From assembly GCA_013361475.1 (NCBI GenBank), contig JABFYB010000700.1, positions 1 to 38,041 on the forward strand: DNA of 38,041 bases, in the 5' to 3' direction. Origin of the DNA: Hamadaea sp. Its GTDB lineage: Bacteria > Actinomycetota > Actinomycetes > Mycobacteriales > Micromonosporaceae. The notes beneath the pieces are model-generated. The model searched no databases. It was not told where the DNA came from and saw only the letters and a list, made by a program, of their open reading frames with translations. Position 1 is the first letter of the stretch. Each line of letters starts with the position of its first letter. Below are positions 2,415 to 5,716 of the stretch, in pieces. The position numbers and the translations under genes are program-made.

Positions 2415-2449
2415 CGCAAGAGGATACGACTCTGTCGTATCCTCTTGCG
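2415..2449. promoter_or_regulatory. Perfect 16-bp inverted repeat with 3-nt centre (operator or terminator)
   Basis: Arms 2415-2430 and 2434-2449 are exactly complementary around TCT. The repeat lies between the monooxygenase stop (2403) and the exonuclease ATG (2463). As RNA it would be a strong hairpin, but no T-run follows. As DNA, the core ATACGAC-TCT-GTCGTAT looks like a TetR-family operator. It also covers an upstream in-frame TTG at 2445, so that codon is an unlikely start. Confidence 0.6.
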
Positions 2450-2462
2450 ACAATCGGACGCG

Positions 2463-3830
2463 ATGGAGCTTTTCGCGTATGCCGAACTGGGCGCCGACGG
2501 TCACGAGCTGCCACGCGGCCCCTACGTCGTCATCGACCTGGAGACCACCGGGCTGTTCCCGGCGGAGGACCGGATCGTCGAGATCGCCATGGCCCGGGTC
2601 GAGGATGACCGGATCGTGGAGGAGTGGGCGACGCTCATCGATCCCGGCCGCGACCCCGGCCCCACCTTCCTGCATCACATCAGTCAGGACATGGTGACCG
2701 GCGCGCCCACGTTCCGGGAGATCGCGGGGGAGATCCTCGCCCGGCTCGACGGGGCGATCGTAGTCGCCCACAACGCCGCGTTCGAGGAGGGCTTCCTCGC
2801 CGCGGAACTCGCCCGGCTGCCGATCGAGGTGCCGCCGATCCCCGCGTTCTGCACCCTGCGCGTCGCCCGGGAAGTCCTGGCCTCGCCCAACTATCGGCTG
2901 GCCACCTGCTGTGAGGTCTGCGGCATCGACCTGCGGGACGCGCATACCGCGCTCGGTGACGTCCGGGCGACCGCCGAGCTGCTGCCTCGGCTCGTCGCGG
3001 CGGCGCCCGGCCTGCGGTACCCGGTCGCTCCGGCCGCGTTGCCGCGGCTGCGGCGACTGGCCGGGCCGCGTACGCGGGTGACCCGGTTGCGGAAGGGCGA
3101 GGACGGCTGGATTCGGTCGATCGTCACCAAGCTTCCGGTGTCGATGTCCGACCACGACCCGATCGGGGCGCAGCCCTACCTCGACTACCTCGCCGAAGCG
3201 CTGGCCGACGGCCGGCTCACCGGCGACAAGGCCCGTCGACTCGGCCGTCTCGCCGGTCGGGCCGGGATGGGCGCCGAGCAGGTGCGCGAGCTGCACCGGC
3301 GGTTCCTCGACGGCGTACGCGACGCCGCGCTGGGCAGCGGAGTGCTGACGCGGCAGGAGCAACTGCGGCTGACCACCATCGCGCAGTTGCTCGACCTGCC
3401 CGATTACTTCGCCGACGTCACCCCCGACCTGCCCGCGCAGCCGACCGGCACCGGTCCCCGCGTCTGGTGCAGCCCGCAGGTGCCGCGCCAGATCCGCGTA
3501 CGCCTGGAGGACGCCGGTTACCAGCTCGCCACGAACCTGACCCGGACGGTCGCCGCCGCTGTGCTCGCCGACACCGACATACGCCTTCCGCAGGCCCGTC
3601 GAGCGGGCGAACTCGGCGCCCGGCTGGTCCCACTGGACGATGTGGACACGTTCATCGACGGCGGGGCGGCGGTCGTGCCCGAACGGGACCGGCTGCCCGC
3701 CCCGATCGCGCCGTCCGGCTGGTACCCCGACCCCACCGGCCGGCACGTGTACCGGTTCTGGAACGGTTCGAGCTGGACCGATCGGGTCAGCCCCGGCGGG
3801 ACGGCGATCTTCACCGACCCGCTCCGCTGA
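2463..3830 (+). CDS. DnaQ-like DEDDh 3'-5' exonuclease with BRCT-like and DUF2510 domains
   Basis: A 455-residue protein. Exo I is at VVIDLETTG (D25, E27), Exo II at VVAHNAAFEEGFL (H103-E108) and Exo III at HTALGDVRATAELL. In Exo II the usual Asp of the HNxxFD motif is Glu. The exonuclease core spans about 20-180, a helical stretch about 230-310, a BRCT-like segment about 320-395, and a DUF2510 motif (SGWYPDPTGRHVYRFWNG) about 418-443. Start choice: ATG 2463 sits just outside the palindrome, while TTG 2445 is within it. The family includes DNA polymerase proofreading and RNA-trimming exonucleases such as RNase T. It is convergent with the tRNA array; a role in tRNA 3'-end turnover would be speculation. 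Confidence 0.85.
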   Translation: MELFAYAELGADGHELPRGPYVVIDLETTGLFPAEDRIVEIAMARVEDDRIVEEWATLIDPGRDPGPTFLHHISQDMVTGAPTFREIAGEILARLDGAIVVAHNAAFEEGFLAAELARLPIEVPPIPAFCTLRVAREVLASPNYRLATCCEVCGIDLRDAHTALGDVRATAELLPRLVAAAPGLRYPVAPAALPRLRRLAGPRTRVTRLRKGEDGWIRSIVTKLPVSMSDHDPIGAQPYLDYLAEALADGRLTGDKARRLGRLAGRAGMGAEQVRELHRRFLDGVRDAALGSGVLTRQEQLRLTTIAQLLDLPDYFADVTPDLPAQPTGTGPRVWCSPQVPRQIRVRLEDAGYQLATNLTRTVAAAVLADTDIRLPQARRAGELGARLVPLDDVDTFIDGGAAVVPERDRLPAPIAPSGWYPDPTGRHVYRFWNGSSWTDRVSPGGTAIFTDPLR

Positions 3831-3864
3831 TCCGCCGCAAGCCGAGCAGCGCCTGGCTGCGGTG

Positions 3865-3920
3865 GGTTGACCTTGAACGTTTTCCGTCGCCAGGGCAGCG
3901 GAAACCGTTCAAGATCGACC
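3865..3920. terminator. Long hairpin between exonuclease and tRNA array
   Basis: Arms 3865-3886 and 3899-3920 form a 22-bp stem with two mismatches and one G-U pair around a 12-nt loop. It lies between two convergent units and probably stops transcription from both sides; there is no long T-run on either strand. It could also be a small repeat element, which a genome-wide copy count would decide. Confidence 0.55.
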
Positions 3921-3932
3921 TGCCGACCAAGA

Positions 3933-4008
3933 TGGTGCCCTCGGCTGGACTCGAACCAGCGACCCCCGAGTTCGGAACCCGGTGCTCTCTCCGCTGAGCT
4001 ACGAAGGC
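3933..4008 (-). tRNA. tRNA-Arg (anticodon CCG)
   Basis: A normal cloverleaf read on the minus strand. The acceptor GCCTTCG pairs with CGAGGGC (one G-U), U8-A9 is present, the D stem is GCTC/GAGC, the anticodon stem CCGGG/CTCGG encloses loop TTCCGAA, and the T arm is GCTGG-TTCGAGT-CCAGC. The discriminator A is followed by an encoded CCA, the only member of the array to have one. It reads CGG and is the last gene of the array. Confidence 0.93.
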
Positions 4009-4021
4009 TTGTCAATTCCAG

Positions 4022-4095
4022 TACGCCTGGCAGGACTCGAACCTGCCACCTCCCGCTTCGTAGGCGGGCGCTCTATCCCGATGAGCTACAGGCGT
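4022..4095 (-). tRNA. tRNA-Arg (anticodon ACG)
   Basis: A normal cloverleaf: acceptor ACGCCTG/CAGGCGT fully paired, U8-A9, D stem GCTC/GAGC, anticodon stem CCCGC/GCGGG with loop CTACGAA, T arm GCAGG-TTCGAGT-CCTGC, discriminator A, CCA not encoded. The A34 would be edited to inosine by TadA, so it reads CGU, CGC and CGA. Only 13 nt separate it from tRNA-Arg(CCG). Confidence 0.93.
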
Positions 4096-4112
4096 GTGTT
4101 CAGTTGTGGCAG

Positions 4113-4185
4113 TACCCGGCGAGGGATTCGAACCCCCAACCTGCGCGTTCTAAGCGCGCCGCCTCTCCCGTTGGGCCAGCCGGGC
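4113..4185 (-). tRNA. tRNA with Leu anticodon UAG but short variable loop
   Basis: Seventy-three bases fold well: acceptor GCCCGGC/GCCGGGT (a G1-U72 wobble, otherwise paired), U8, a 3-bp D stem GCC/GGC with GGG in the loop, anticodon stem GCGCG/CGCGC with loop CTTAGAA, a 5-nt variable region, T arm GGGGG-TTCGAAT-CCCTC, and A73. The anticodon at 34-36 is TAG, which reads the leucine codon CUA. Bacterial leucine tRNAs are class II with a long variable arm, and that arm is missing here. Whether LeuRS charges it is doubtful. CCA is not encoded. Confidence 0.75.
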
Positions 4186-4189
4186 ATCG

Positions 4190-4258
4190 TGGACAACCGG
4201 GGTATCGAACCCCACCCGCGATGTTTGCAAGACATCGCTGCGCACCTGCGCGTCGCCC
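4190..4258 (-). tRNA. Aberrant alanine-type tRNA (anticodon UGC) with reduced D arm
   Basis: Sixty-nine bases. The acceptor GGGCGAC pairs with GTTGTCC; the third pair is G-U, the classic G3-U70 alanine identity element, and the discriminator is A. The anticodon stem can extend to 7 bp (GCGATGT/ACATCGC) around loop CTTGCAA with anticodon TGC. The T arm is TGGGG-TTCGATA-CCCCG. Between acceptor and anticodon stem there are only 13 bases, which form GCGC-AGGT-GCGC plus A in place of a normal D arm, and U8 is missing. AlaRS mainly needs the acceptor, so charging is plausible, but use on the ribosome is uncertain. It is separated from the next tRNA by only 4 nt. It might instead be a degenerate tRNA. 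Confidence 0.6.
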
Positions 4259-4264
4259 GAGTAC

Positions 4265-4314
4265 GCGCCCGCCCCCCACGGGTACGCCGTGGCGTACCCG
4301 CCCCCGTCGGGCGC
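4265..4314. other. Nested hairpin in the tRNA spacer
   Basis: The spacer between the Ala-like and Pro tRNAs folds into a nested hairpin. The outer stem GCGCCCG (4265-4271) pairs with CGGGCGC (4308-4314), and a perfect inner 10-bp stem covers 4279-4288 and 4291-4300 around GT. It lacks T-loop and anticodon-loop features, so it is not another tRNA. It may guide processing of the tRNA transcript. Confidence 0.5.
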
Positions 4315-4319
4315 GTCAG

Positions 4320-4391
4320 TCCGGAACCTCCGAGTCGAACGGAGTGTCTCGCGTTCCCAAAACGCACGGGTTGCCGTCTCCCCCGTTCCGG
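4320..4391 (-). tRNA. tRNA-Pro (anticodon UGG), lacking U8
   Basis: Seventy-two bases: acceptor CCGGAAC/GTTCCGG fully paired with C1-G72 and discriminator A, both bacterial proline identity elements. The anticodon stem TGCGT/ACGCG encloses TTTGGGA with anticodon TGG followed by G37, as usual in tRNA-Pro. The T arm is CTCCG-TTCGACT-CGGAG. The D arm is unusual: a 3-bp GGG/CCC stem, loop AGACGGCAA, and G instead of U at position 8. CCA is not encoded. It reads CCA and other CCN codons. Confidence 0.78.
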
Positions 4392-4396
4392 TCGCA

Positions 4397-4414
4397 CTGC
4401 AATTCGAATTGCAG
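4397..4414. other. 18-bp perfect palindrome in AT-rich tRNA spacer
   Basis: CTGCAATTCGAATTGCAG is a perfect palindrome in the 56-nt spacer between tRNA-Trp and tRNA-Pro. The spacer is strikingly AT-rich for this genome. It may be a protein-binding site, a processing hairpin or an internal promoter element; nothing decides between these. Confidence 0.5.
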
Positions 4415-4447
4415 CATCCACTATGGAATTAAGAATGCGTTGATAAG

Positions 4448-4520
4448 CACGGGCGGTAGGAGTCGAACCCACGGCCGCCGGATTTGGAGTCCGGTGCTCT
4501 ACCAGCTGAGCTACACCCGC
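4448..4520 (-). tRNA. tRNA-Trp (anticodon CCA)
   Basis: A normal cloverleaf: acceptor GCGGGTG/CGCCCGT with a G1-U72 wobble, U8-A9, D stem GCTC/GAGC, anticodon stem CCGGA/TCCGG with loop CTCCAAA, T arm GTGGG-TTCGACT-CCTAC, and G73, the tryptophan discriminator. The common bacterial tRNA-Trp starts with A1-U72, so this may be a second, divergent tryptophan tRNA. It is the first gene of the array; its 5' end lies just after an intrinsic terminator. Confidence 0.9.
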
Positions 4521-4525
4521 AGGGA

Positions 4526-4563
4526 GCAAGAAAAAGCCGTCCGCCGGAGTGCCCGGGGACGGC
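4526..4563 (-). terminator. Intrinsic terminator immediately before tRNA-Trp
   Basis: Reading the minus strand, GCCGTCC (4563-4557) pairs with GGACGGC (4542-4536), and an inner CCGG/CCGG pairing extends the stem to about 11 bp with one bulge. The run TTTTTCTT follows at 4535-4528. This is a textbook rho-independent terminator, rare in such GC-rich genomes. It ends 5-10 nt before the mature 5' end of tRNA-Trp, so array transcription starting upstream must read through it. Confidence 0.8.
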
Positions 4564-4583
4564 GAAAGCCGAATGTGGCGCGC

Positions 4584-4676
4584 TTAGCGGCGCCAGCCAA
4601 CCCGGGTGAGCGAGCCCCGTCGGGGGCACGGCAGTGCGGCGGCGAGTGAGGCTCGGCGCCAGTGTCGGCTTCGCAT
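4584..4676 (-). CDS. Putative 30-residue leader peptide upstream of tRNA array
   Basis: ATG at 4676 to TAA at 4584-4586, 30 codons, with a strong Shine-Dalgarno AAAGGGG (4689-4683) 6 nt before the ATG. The product is very basic: nine Arg (four as CGA), four Ala, three Leu, two Pro and two Trp, i.e. 20 of 30 residues belong to the amino acids of the tRNA array downstream. It starts MRSRHWRRASLAAALP and resembles no family I know. The stop lies 21 nt before the terminator stem, a layout typical of leader-peptide attenuation. It may instead be an independent microprotein or a chance ORF in GC-rich DNA; the ribosome-binding site is the best evidence for translation. Confidence 0.5.
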   Translation of the reverse strand: MRSRHWRRASLAAALPCPRRGSLTRVGWRR

Positions 4677-4737
4677 GTCGTTCCCCTTTCTCATCGGGCT
4701 CGCTGGACTGAAGACAACGATAAGGCGTCCACGCGAA

Positions 4738-4764
4738 TTGCGCAATGAATTAAAGCGGTAGGCT
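4738..4764 (+). promoter_or_regulatory. Promoter of threonine/serine dehydratase gene (leaderless)
   Basis: TAGGCT at 4759-4764 lies 7 nt before the GTG at 4772, so transcription should start at or next to the start codon. A TTGCGC at 4738-4743, part of the palindrome ATTGCGCAAT (4737-4746), could serve as -35 with a short 15-bp spacer. No Shine-Dalgarno is present. Confidence 0.5.
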
Positions 4765-4771
4765 GAACGCC

Positions 4772-5716
4772 GTGACTACTCTGGTGACTCTGGCCGACGT
4801 TCGGGCCGCCGCGGACCGCGTCGAGGGGGTCGTCGTGCGTACGCCGCTGGTGCCCGTGCCCGGGATCGGCCCGGATCTGTGGCTCAAACCGGAGAGTCTG
4901 CAGCCGACCGGCGCGTTCAAGCTGCGCGGCGCGACCAACGCCGTCCGTTCCCTGCCGGCGGAGTCGCTTCGAGCGGGCGTGGTCACCCACTCCTCGGGCA
5001 ACCACGGCCAGGCTTTGGCGTACGCCGCCCGCTCGGCCGGGATCGCCTGTTGGGTGGTCGTCCCCGAAGGCGCGCCGAGCGTCAAGGTCGAGGCCATCCG
5101 GGCCCAGGGCGCCGAGATCGTGCTCGTCCCGCCCGCCCAGCGGCTGCCGGAGGCGGAGCGGATCGCCGCCGAACGCGGCGCCGCCCTCGTGCCGCCGTTC
5201 GACGATCCGGCGGTCATCGCCGGTCAGGGCACGCTCGGCCTGGAGATCGTCGCGGATCTGCCCGACGTGGACGTCGTGCTGGTGCAGGTCGGCGGCGGTG
5301 GGCTGATCTCCGGTGTCGCCGCGGCGGTGAAGGCGCTCAGCCCGTCGGCCCGCGTCATCGGCGTCGAGCCGGAGCTGGCGGCCGAGACCGCCGAAGGGCT
5401 GCGTACCGGGACCCTGGTGCCCTGGCCGGTGGAGCGGACCTACCGGACCATCGCCGACGGGGTCCGCACCAGCCCGTCCGAGCTGACCTTCGCCCATATT
5501 CAGGCCTATGTGGACGACATCGTCACCGTCACCGAGGAGCAGATCCGGGCGGCGGTCGGCGTACTGGCGCACCAGGCGCGGATCGTCGCCGAGCCCAGCG
5601 GCGCGCTCACCACCGCGGCGTACCTGGCGGGGAAGGCGCCCGCCGGGCGTACCGTCGCGATCGTGTCCGGGGGAAACGCGGACCCGGCGCTGTTGCACGA
5701 GCTTCTCCGCCCGTAA
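4772..5716 (+). CDS. PLP-dependent threonine/serine dehydratase family protein
   Basis: A 314-residue fold-type II PLP enzyme. The PLP lysine is K50 in TGAFKLRGATNA, the substrate-loop motif is SSGNHGQALAYAAR (about 72-85), the phosphate-binding glycine loop is GGGGLISGV, and SGGNADP lies near the C terminus. There is no C-terminal ACT domain, so it resembles catabolic threonine dehydratase or serine racemase/dehydratase rather than isoleucine-regulated IlvA. The expected reaction is conversion of L-threonine to 2-oxobutyrate and ammonia, or of serine to pyruvate. The transcript looks leaderless. Confidence 0.9.
   Translation: MTTLVTLADVRAAADRVEGVVVRTPLVPVPGIGPDLWLKPESLQPTGAFKLRGATNAVRSLPAESLRAGVVTHSSGNHGQALAYAARSAGIACWVVVPEGAPSVKVEAIRAQGAEIVLVPPAQRLPEAERIAAERGAALVPPFDDPAVIAGQGTLGLEIVADLPDVDVVLVQVGGGGLISGVAAAVKALSPSARVIGVEPELAAETAEGLRTGTLVPWPVERTYRTIADGVRTSPSELTFAHIQAYVDDIVTVTEEQIRAAVGVLAHQARIVAEPSGALTTAAYLAGKAPAGRTVAIVSGGNADPALLHELLRP

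Follow-up and report, generated by a model that had tools for sequence, protein, structure and literature searches.

A putative ribosome-mediated attenuator of spare tRNA arrays in Hamadaea and its relatives, with a leader ORF resembling a checklist of the tRNAs behind it

Comparison of a tRNA array from Hamadaea sp. (Micromonosporaceae) with those of its relatives makes it probable that this array is controlled by a ribosome-mediated transcription attenuator, whose leader ORF would be a codon checklist of the spare tRNAs encoded behind it. The stretch analyzed, hereafter the window, comprises 38,041 nt (contig JABFYB010000700.1). What can be read from the sequence is a conserved architecture, the lack of a recognizable promoter after the terminator, and a match between leader codons and array tRNAs; that the leader is translated, how the array is switched and what the system serves for are inferences, there being no expression, translation or structure data. 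The system is conserved, with the window as one case of it, and is apparently undescribed so far. An earlier note on this DNA had proposed leader-peptide attenuation of tRNA genes, which remains the best reading of the comparative data, with the regulatory step as an inference; what it seems to have overlooked is the scope, since control would extend beyond Trp or Arg to the whole array.

The leader locus in the window and in related genomes

The window array contains six tRNAs in 588 bp, a dense run that fits a tRNA array unit, and its features, all on the minus strand, are as follows.

4717–4745, minus strand: promoter-like site TTGCGC (4745–4740), 17 nt, TATCGT (4722–4717), from the sequence, between the leader and a divergent gene for a PLP-dependent enzyme (PF00291)
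4683–4689, minus strand: Shine-Dalgarno (SD) sequence AAAGGGG, from the sequence; duplex with the anti-SD, −12.6 kcal/mol
4584–4676, minus strand: leader ORF (putative checklist leader), 30 codons plus TAA stop, ATG at 4676, MRSRHWRRASLAAALPCPRRGSLTRVGWRR
4591–4606, minus strand: CCCGGGTTGGCTGGCG, candidate for the antiterminator strand, located at the ORF end, with complementarity to the 5′ arm of the terminator (−16.7 kcal/mol, z −0.6)
4531–4563, minus strand: intrinsic terminator, with hairpin 4563–4536 GCCGTCCCCGGGCACTCCGGCGGACGGC and T tract 4535–4531 (−21.3 kcal/mol)
4447–4520, minus strand: tRNA-Trp (CCA), heading the array (ARAGORN and Rfam)
4411–4435, minus strand: rrn-leader-like (boxA-like) element TTCTTAATTCCATAGTGGATGCTGC, with a core common to related arrays
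4319–4391, minus strand: tRNA-Pro (UGG) (ARAGORN; under the Rfam cut-off)
4189–4258, minus strand: tRNA-Ala (UGC) (ARAGORN; under the Rfam cut-off)
4112–4185, minus strand: tRNA-Leu (UAG) (ARAGORN and Rfam)
4021–4095, minus strand: tRNA-Arg (ACG) (ARAGORN and Rfam)
3933–4008, minus strand: tRNA-Arg (CCG) (ARAGORN and Rfam)

This layout bears out the description given in the earlier note: the SD lies 6 nt from the 30-codon ORF, and the ORF ends shortly before an 11-bp terminator stem followed by TTTTTC (at a distance of 20 nt as measured here, rather than 21), with tRNA-Trp close behind, the T tract ending at 4531 and the tRNA starting at 4520. A simple terminator scan of the window missed the hairpin at 4563–4536, probably owing to a bulge in its stem. 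Searches for a T-box riboswitch, limited to the window and not extended to relatives, returned no Rfam match, nor did the region 3500–5200 at E up to 1. Four of the six tRNAs exceed the Rfam cut-off whereas those for Pro and Ala do not, and the array thus appears partly decayed; the window copy is probably a small, decaying example of a type of array that reaches up to 37 tRNAs in relatives. Right after the last tRNA there is a long imperfect inverted repeat (3855–3928), with weak, sub-cut-off Rfam matches on both strands, which is perhaps the end of the array transcript. Convergent with the array, on the plus strand, is a gene (2445–3827) whose protein combines an exonuclease domain (PF00929) and a DUF2510 domain.

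The relatives were obtained by a search with the window array and by a search of 150 genomes of the family with its Trp-Pro segment, together with the surrounding regions. Fifty-three Trp-headed arrays were analyzed, one of them (G048) from another family of the same order, and a leader was found in 51; G005 is truncated by the contig end, G081 has no ORF of 25–55 codons, and for G071 an ORF of 43 codons was used instead of the one chosen automatically. Under strict criteria, demanding an SD, 28–55 codons, and a stop 10–26 nt before a hairpin of at most −17 kcal/mol with a T tract, 51 of 52 usable array upstream regions passed, in comparison with none of 29 single tRNA genes and none of 208 dinucleotide shuffles. 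The leaders have a median of 42 codons and a median gap of 18 nt between stop and stem, and in these 51 arrays the median hairpin energy is −23.7 kcal/mol and the median distance from hairpin end to tRNA-Trp is 23 nt. An ORF with an SD directly 5′ of an intrinsic terminator is one criterion for an attenuator, and it is met here, translation itself not being shown. Among 18 array starts without a detected tRNA-Trp, 17 were testable and 15 of them had leader and terminator; the exceptions were L070, with a terminator but no ORF, and L054, with neither, while L094 offered too little sequence. As a separate observation on array structure, an HNH endonuclease gene (PF14279) lies in the roughly 510 nt that separate tRNA-Gly(GCC) from tRNA-Gln(CTG) at L057:1724–2239 and L059:1492–1998, and in the arrays surveyed there are 30 instances in which more than 250 nt separate this pair of tRNAs.

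The earlier note had argued that there is almost no room for a promoter after the terminator, so that the array would probably be fed by read-through, and the distribution of promoter-like sites agrees with this. In 47 of 51 arrays a SigA-like pattern (TTGnnn-N16..19-TAnnnT) precedes the leader (mean of 1.1 and maximum of 7 in mononucleotide-shuffled sequences), vs. none of 51 with the pattern between terminator and tRNA-Trp, a space that spans at most 35 nt in 42 of the 51; judged by this consensus pattern, in the absence of mapped start sites, the promoter arrangement expected of an attenuator is present. Downstream of tRNA-Trp, at up to 160 nt and with a median of 43 nt, 50 of the 53 arrays carry the core of a boxA-like element, typically TTGAnAACTCCACAGTGGATGGCAT, similar to a sequence of rrn leaders. 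The related TTGAGAACTCAACAGGG precedes each of the eight 16S genes in G003 (three), G013 (four) and G106 (one) by 98–127 nt; in G035 there are three TTGAGAACTCAACAGGG sites, none coinciding with the 16S matches found. From this we infer, without data on Nus-factor binding, that antitermination of the rrn type may act on the long untranslated array, whose transcript the element may protect. One further boxA-like sequence, TTGACAACTCCACAGTG (G106:C1:4195286–4195302), is distant from the rrn operon of that genome and also from its tRNA array.

When named genomes, which overlap partly with those above (some are of the same species), were scanned for the boxA-like element only, 56 stretches with 57 sites were obtained, 50 of which fall in arrays of at least three tRNAs. 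Leader plus terminator were present in 43 of these 50 arrays, including ones from Micromonospora, Salinispora, Asanoa, Plantactinospora, Phytohabitans, and Actinoplanes; no leader was found in the other seven, of which L151 and L170 are near locus ends.

For its own hypothesis the earlier note had called for a comparison of the leader in relatives, naming loss of ORF and terminator where the array persists as a refutation, and the outcome is divided. In two genomes of the genus Hamadaea (G002 and G003) the orthologous loci align across the leader, and promoter, SD, in-frame ORF, and terminator are all kept. Both arrays have lost tRNA-Trp by deletion: according to ARAGORN the window has Trp, Pro, Ala, Leu, Arg, Arg, whereas G003 has Leu, Arg, Arg and G002 has Pro, Arg, Arg. 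The leaders of the window, G003 and G002 contain two, zero and one Trp codons, respectively. A third genome of the genus (G001) carries an array of 12 tRNAs behind a leader of its own; conversely, the 700 nt upstream of its two-tRNA remnant L054 (only tRNA-Pro and tRNA-Ala) contain no leader and no terminator.

Leader codons and the tRNAs of their own array

Twenty of the 30 residues of the window leader correspond to amino acids of the array, and it includes two Trp and four CGA codons, as the earlier note had correctly counted; that note cautioned that such residues are common in GC-rich ORFs, and the correspondence turned out to be the key feature of the system. Each of the six tRNAs in the window array can decode at least one codon of the leader. 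In all, we examined the 77 complete arrays of a total of 85, excluding eight that were cut (in preliminary versions of the test, arrays truncated at locus ends had been included and the chaining distance was short). Particular weight was given to 11 rarer amino acids (Asn, Asp, Cys, His, Ile, Lys, Phe, Tyr, Trp, Gln, and Glu), a set chosen before the final totals but after the preliminary test.

Where the array includes the corresponding tRNA, the leader contained these rarer amino acids in 368 of 391 cases, compared with 238 of 456 where that tRNA is absent; the figures for 19 amino acids (Met excluded) were 96.9 vs. 65.0%. Null ORFs of similar length (4017 ORFs) contained the rarer amino acids in 54% of cases, and swapped leaders gave 76.4 ± 1.7%, with 83.4% as the highest of 2000 swaps. 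Individual amino acids behaved likewise, with counts for tRNA in the array vs. not of 25/28 vs. 14/49 for Ile, 33/34 vs. 23/43 for His, 34/37 vs. 19/40 for Tyr, 29/29 vs. 34/48 for Cys, 25/27 vs. 25/50 for Asn, 28/37 vs. 12/40 for Lys, and 9/12 vs. 27/65 for Phe (p 0.056). Of 801 tRNA amino acids in these arrays, 25 are uncovered, having no codon in their own leader, compared with 70.8 ± 4.9 in shuffles that fixed array sizes and tRNA frequencies (minimum of 57 in 2000 shuffles). A cluster of 37 leaders dominates the sample; using one leader per 45%-identity cluster (29 clusters) the values were 95.4 vs. 49.6%, with 6.0 vs. 29.2 uncovered, and these controls remove shared ancestry only in part. 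The 32 nearest disjoint pairs differing in a tRNA gave 26 concordant, 6 discordant, and 88 unchanged cases. The match is also specific to the reading frame, with 47.2 vs. 46.1% (tRNA present vs. absent) in frame +1 and 54.7 vs. 48.5% in frame +2.

The correspondence extends in part to the codon. Excluding anticodon CAT (Met/Ile), 105 of 1090 anticodons had no decodable codon in the leader, vs. 188.3 ± 8.0 expected from the margin-preserving shuffles; allowing only Watson-Crick matching, in the preliminary test, the effect was smaller and in the same direction (68.1 vs. 60.4% for swapped leaders). Isoacceptor-matched codons occurred, with tRNA present vs. absent, in 12/15 vs. 15/62 leaders for Arg-CCU (AGG), 19/29 vs. 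12/48 for Leu-CAA (TTG), 15/17 vs. 18/60 for Val-UAC (GTA, GTG), and 44/48 vs. 15/29 for Glu-CUC (GAG). The counts for Val-CAC ran in the opposite direction (7/21 vs. 25/56), and for many codons of common boxes there was no difference. Exceptions also exist at the amino acid level: in 20 of the 77 complete arrays the leader has no codon for one or more of the tRNA amino acids, Lys being the most frequent. A further criterion for an attenuator, namely control codons that match the product of the operon, is hence met, and in our view the match between leader and tRNAs is established, insofar as sequence statistics can do so.

A Trp codon lies upstream of the last seven codons in 62 of the 63 unique leaders from Trp-headed arrays (46% in null ORFs); over the 85 arrays, the codon is present in 62 and absent in one of those with tRNA-Trp, compared with 13 and 9 among the 22 without a detected tRNA-Trp, two of which (L141 and L177) hold a Trp-like tRNA according to BLAST. 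Likewise, the Hamadaea array in G003 has neither tRNA-Trp nor a Trp codon in its leader. These counts would fit an attenuator in the style of the trp operon, in which only the Trp codons matter, with the remaining tRNAs as passengers. The same kind of match is seen, however, for Ile, His, Tyr, Lys, Asn, Cys, Asp, Gln, and Glu, as well as for several isoacceptor codons, and arrays with at least 14 amino acid types have leaders averaging 18.4 distinct amino acids, vs. 14.0 in null ORFs. As most amino acids show the same pattern, we dropped control by Trp alone, which we now regard as very unlikely, in favor of a checklist of the whole array.

The peptide sequence of the leader drifts almost freely, yet its composition tracks the array. 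Estimates of pN/pS were 0.78–1.25 in five groups and 2.05 in the group of the window's own genus, which rules out amino acid conservation as a signal of translation; values near or above 1 also make a function of the peptide unlikely. The conservation of SD, length and stop position of the ORF could otherwise be explained if it encoded a functional small protein, with the terminator merely separating an array transcribed independently. Besides the pN/pS values in the five groups, this explanation is opposed by the lack of promoter-like sites from terminator to tRNA-Trp and by the match to the tRNAs, which has no evident meaning for the function of a protein, and we find it scarcely credible next to the codon checklist.

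Leaders of comparable composition occur in other lineages. Seven plasmids from Micrococcales, from Paenarthrobacter YJN-5, Pseudarthrobacter chlorophenolicus A6, Pseudarthrobacter BIM B-2242, Arthrobacter zg-Y1110, Arthrobacter caoxuetaonis, Curtobacterium pusillum, and Curtobacterium MCSS17_016, carry tRNA-Trp-headed arrays with an SD-led ORF and a terminator. Six of the seven leaders include all 20 amino acids in 44–52 residues, as do only 10 of 592 null ORFs (1.7%); the seventh, from A. caoxuetaonis, lacks only Cys, and its array has no tRNA-Cys in the fetched stretch. Within the fetched stretches, some of which perhaps end in mid-array, no tRNA was found for the leader amino acids His (L239), Cys (L240), Cys, Gly, and Lys (L246), and Phe (L247). 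These leaders are strongly diverged from those of Micromonosporaceae, although the alignment displays a similar short CG...LP...KP/RP stretch in several; neither of two pairwise BLASTP comparisons was significant (E 0.37 and 1.1). A common origin is thus undecided, and we do not claim the Micrococcales leaders as independent inventions. Three IMG/VR contigs have the boxA-like element, two of them with a leader by the SD criterion, and the third (L249, 32 tRNAs) with a GTG-initiated ORF of 44 codons and 19 amino acids that has almost no SD. The Mycolicibacterium plasmid arrays L131 and L134 show a boxA-like TTTGAGAACTTCACAGTGG directly 5′ of the first tRNA, but over 800 nt of upstream sequence they lack a leader ORF followed by a terminator; no leader was found for the Tsukamurella plasmid array L132 either. 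The Streptomyces plasmid L244 (two tRNAs) and the Prescottella plasmid L245 (one tRNA) contain no array, a Miltoncostaea array (L236) with a doubtful ORF was left uncounted, and L243, from a Tsukamurella ribosomal-gene region, was outside the scan.

The proposed switch

In the mechanism that we propose, RNA polymerase would start upstream of the leader. With all the listed tRNAs available, the ribosome would reach the stop codon and cover the end of the ORF, allowing the terminator to fold and leaving the array off. If any listed tRNA were missing or uncharged, the ribosome would stall earlier, the end of the ORF could pair with the 5′ arm of the terminator, and polymerase would enter the array, so that the spare set would be made.

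Complementarity between the end of the ORF and the 5′ arm has a mean z of −1.43, with 27 of 51 arrays below −1, in comparison with +0.16 for the 3′ arm; the value for the window alone is only −0.6, the trend being stronger in the family. When leaders were folded with the upstream RNA masked by a ribosome, simulated sequestration of the 5′ arm averaged about 0.76 for ribosomes at least 11 codons before the stop and 0.17–0.27 within six codons of it; shuffled ORF ends gave 0.58, and the real ends were higher in 47 of 51. In eight Micromonospora-type leaders the upstream Trp is only eight codons before the stop, and simulated antitermination was intermediate (0.30–0.65). Pairing of leaders with their own arm (−19.35) was barely better than with swapped ones (−18.43), 44 of 77 unique leaders surpassing their swapped mean, and the antiterminator has therefore little support from covariation. 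Pairing is weaker than chance in the two Curtobacterium plasmids (z +1.7 and +2.0), equal to chance in A. caoxuetaonis and at z −0.8 to −2.6 in the other four Micrococcaceae leaders. The simulated antiterminator forms also without any ribosome, while the full-length fold usually favors the terminator, so that the outcome would rest on kinetics; folding gave no sign of a strand sequestering the antiterminator in the ribosome-free leader.

That simulated antitermination is flat for all stalls at least 11 codons before the stop, and persists in the ribosome-free leader, is what would be expected if the leader were a general sensor of translation stress, similar to those of whiB7 and erm, in which any slowing of the ribosome opens the array without a coded list; the pN/pS values near 1 within groups agree with this too. 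Such a sensor does not, however, require any match between codons and its own array, and the match survives swaps, margin-preserving shuffles, and frame controls. We consider a pure stress sensor unlikely, if less so than control by Trp alone, and retain the codon checklist as the preferred reading.

Relation to known systems and possible function

The attenuators of amino acid operons, such as the trp, his, leu, and ilv leaders, are ribosome-mediated and contain a run of codons for one amino acid. The arrays described here share with them a short SD-led ORF, a terminator next to it and, by inference, control by ribosome position; complementarity of the ORF end to the 5′ arm is seen as an average trend that the Curtobacterium plasmids do not follow. 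They differ in having tRNA genes as targets, with at least one control codon for each tRNA of the array, and in that folding revealed no strand that sequesters the antiterminator in the absence of a ribosome. All attenuation known to us acts on protein genes, usually with control codons that report one or a few amino acids. The whiB7 and erm leaders respond to translation stress, and we know of no leader of the whiB7 or topAI type with a coded list of the products of its own operon. The topAI uORF of E. coli is another translation-stress leader (PMC12121999). The whiB7 and topAI leaders resemble the present system in that a uORF reads ribosome stalling and gates the genes downstream, and differ from it in having protein genes as targets.

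Array units of tRNA genes have been reported from genomes, plasmids and phages of Mycobacterium and share with those analyzed here a dense organization, diverse isotypes and HNH endonucleases inside (PMC5966550); at least in its main text no words starting with "leader", "attenuat", "terminator" or "promoter" occur. Leader peptides or attenuation of tRNA arrays had no recognizable report in the open-licence literature, which leaves most subscription papers uncovered.

The arrays add to the housekeeping tRNAs, as in the complete genome G106, where 10 of 61 tRNA matches are in the array at 1275176–1276523. Three tested Micrococcales plasmid arrays encode a HAD_SAK_2 protein (PF18143, RNA-repair HAD), and in Curtobacterium MCSS17_016 an annotated ATP-dependent RNA ligase is within or adjoining the array; these RNA-repair genes were noted at L237:3275–3796, L238:10996–11544, and L246:16667–18073. 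Phage tRNAs are reported to evade tRNA-targeting defences (PMC10264068), and tRNAs are cleaved under stress in Salmonella (PMC7790460). Together, RNA-repair genes, evasion by phage tRNAs and stress-induced tRNA cleavage lead us to infer that the most likely purpose is the replacement of tRNAs destroyed by tRNA-cutting toxins or defence nucleases. The resemblance to phage tRNAs lies in a spare tRNA set on mobile DNA, possibly directed against tRNA nucleases; evasion in phages is reported to proceed via mutations of the anticodon loop (PMC10264068), unlike the arrays described here, in which a sensor apparently reads which tRNAs are scarce.

With more reserve than for the attenuator as such, we lean towards a fuller picture of a self-referential regulator, in which the leader of each array would hold an inventory of its own tRNAs down to the isoacceptor codon and act as a many-input OR gate releasing the whole set whenever any one tRNA is missing, thus providing a mobile, inducible replacement of tRNAs against tRNA-destroying toxins or defences, with RNA-repair proteins in some plasmid versions. 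The composition of the leader carries a testable prediction, in that a tRNA in the array should have a codon in the leader. Attenuation appears here to govern tRNA genes, behind a leader that resembles a coded inventory of them, and this suggests a reason for the large spare tRNA arrays of bacteria and plasmids: they may be an emergency set, turned on when a tRNA is lost.
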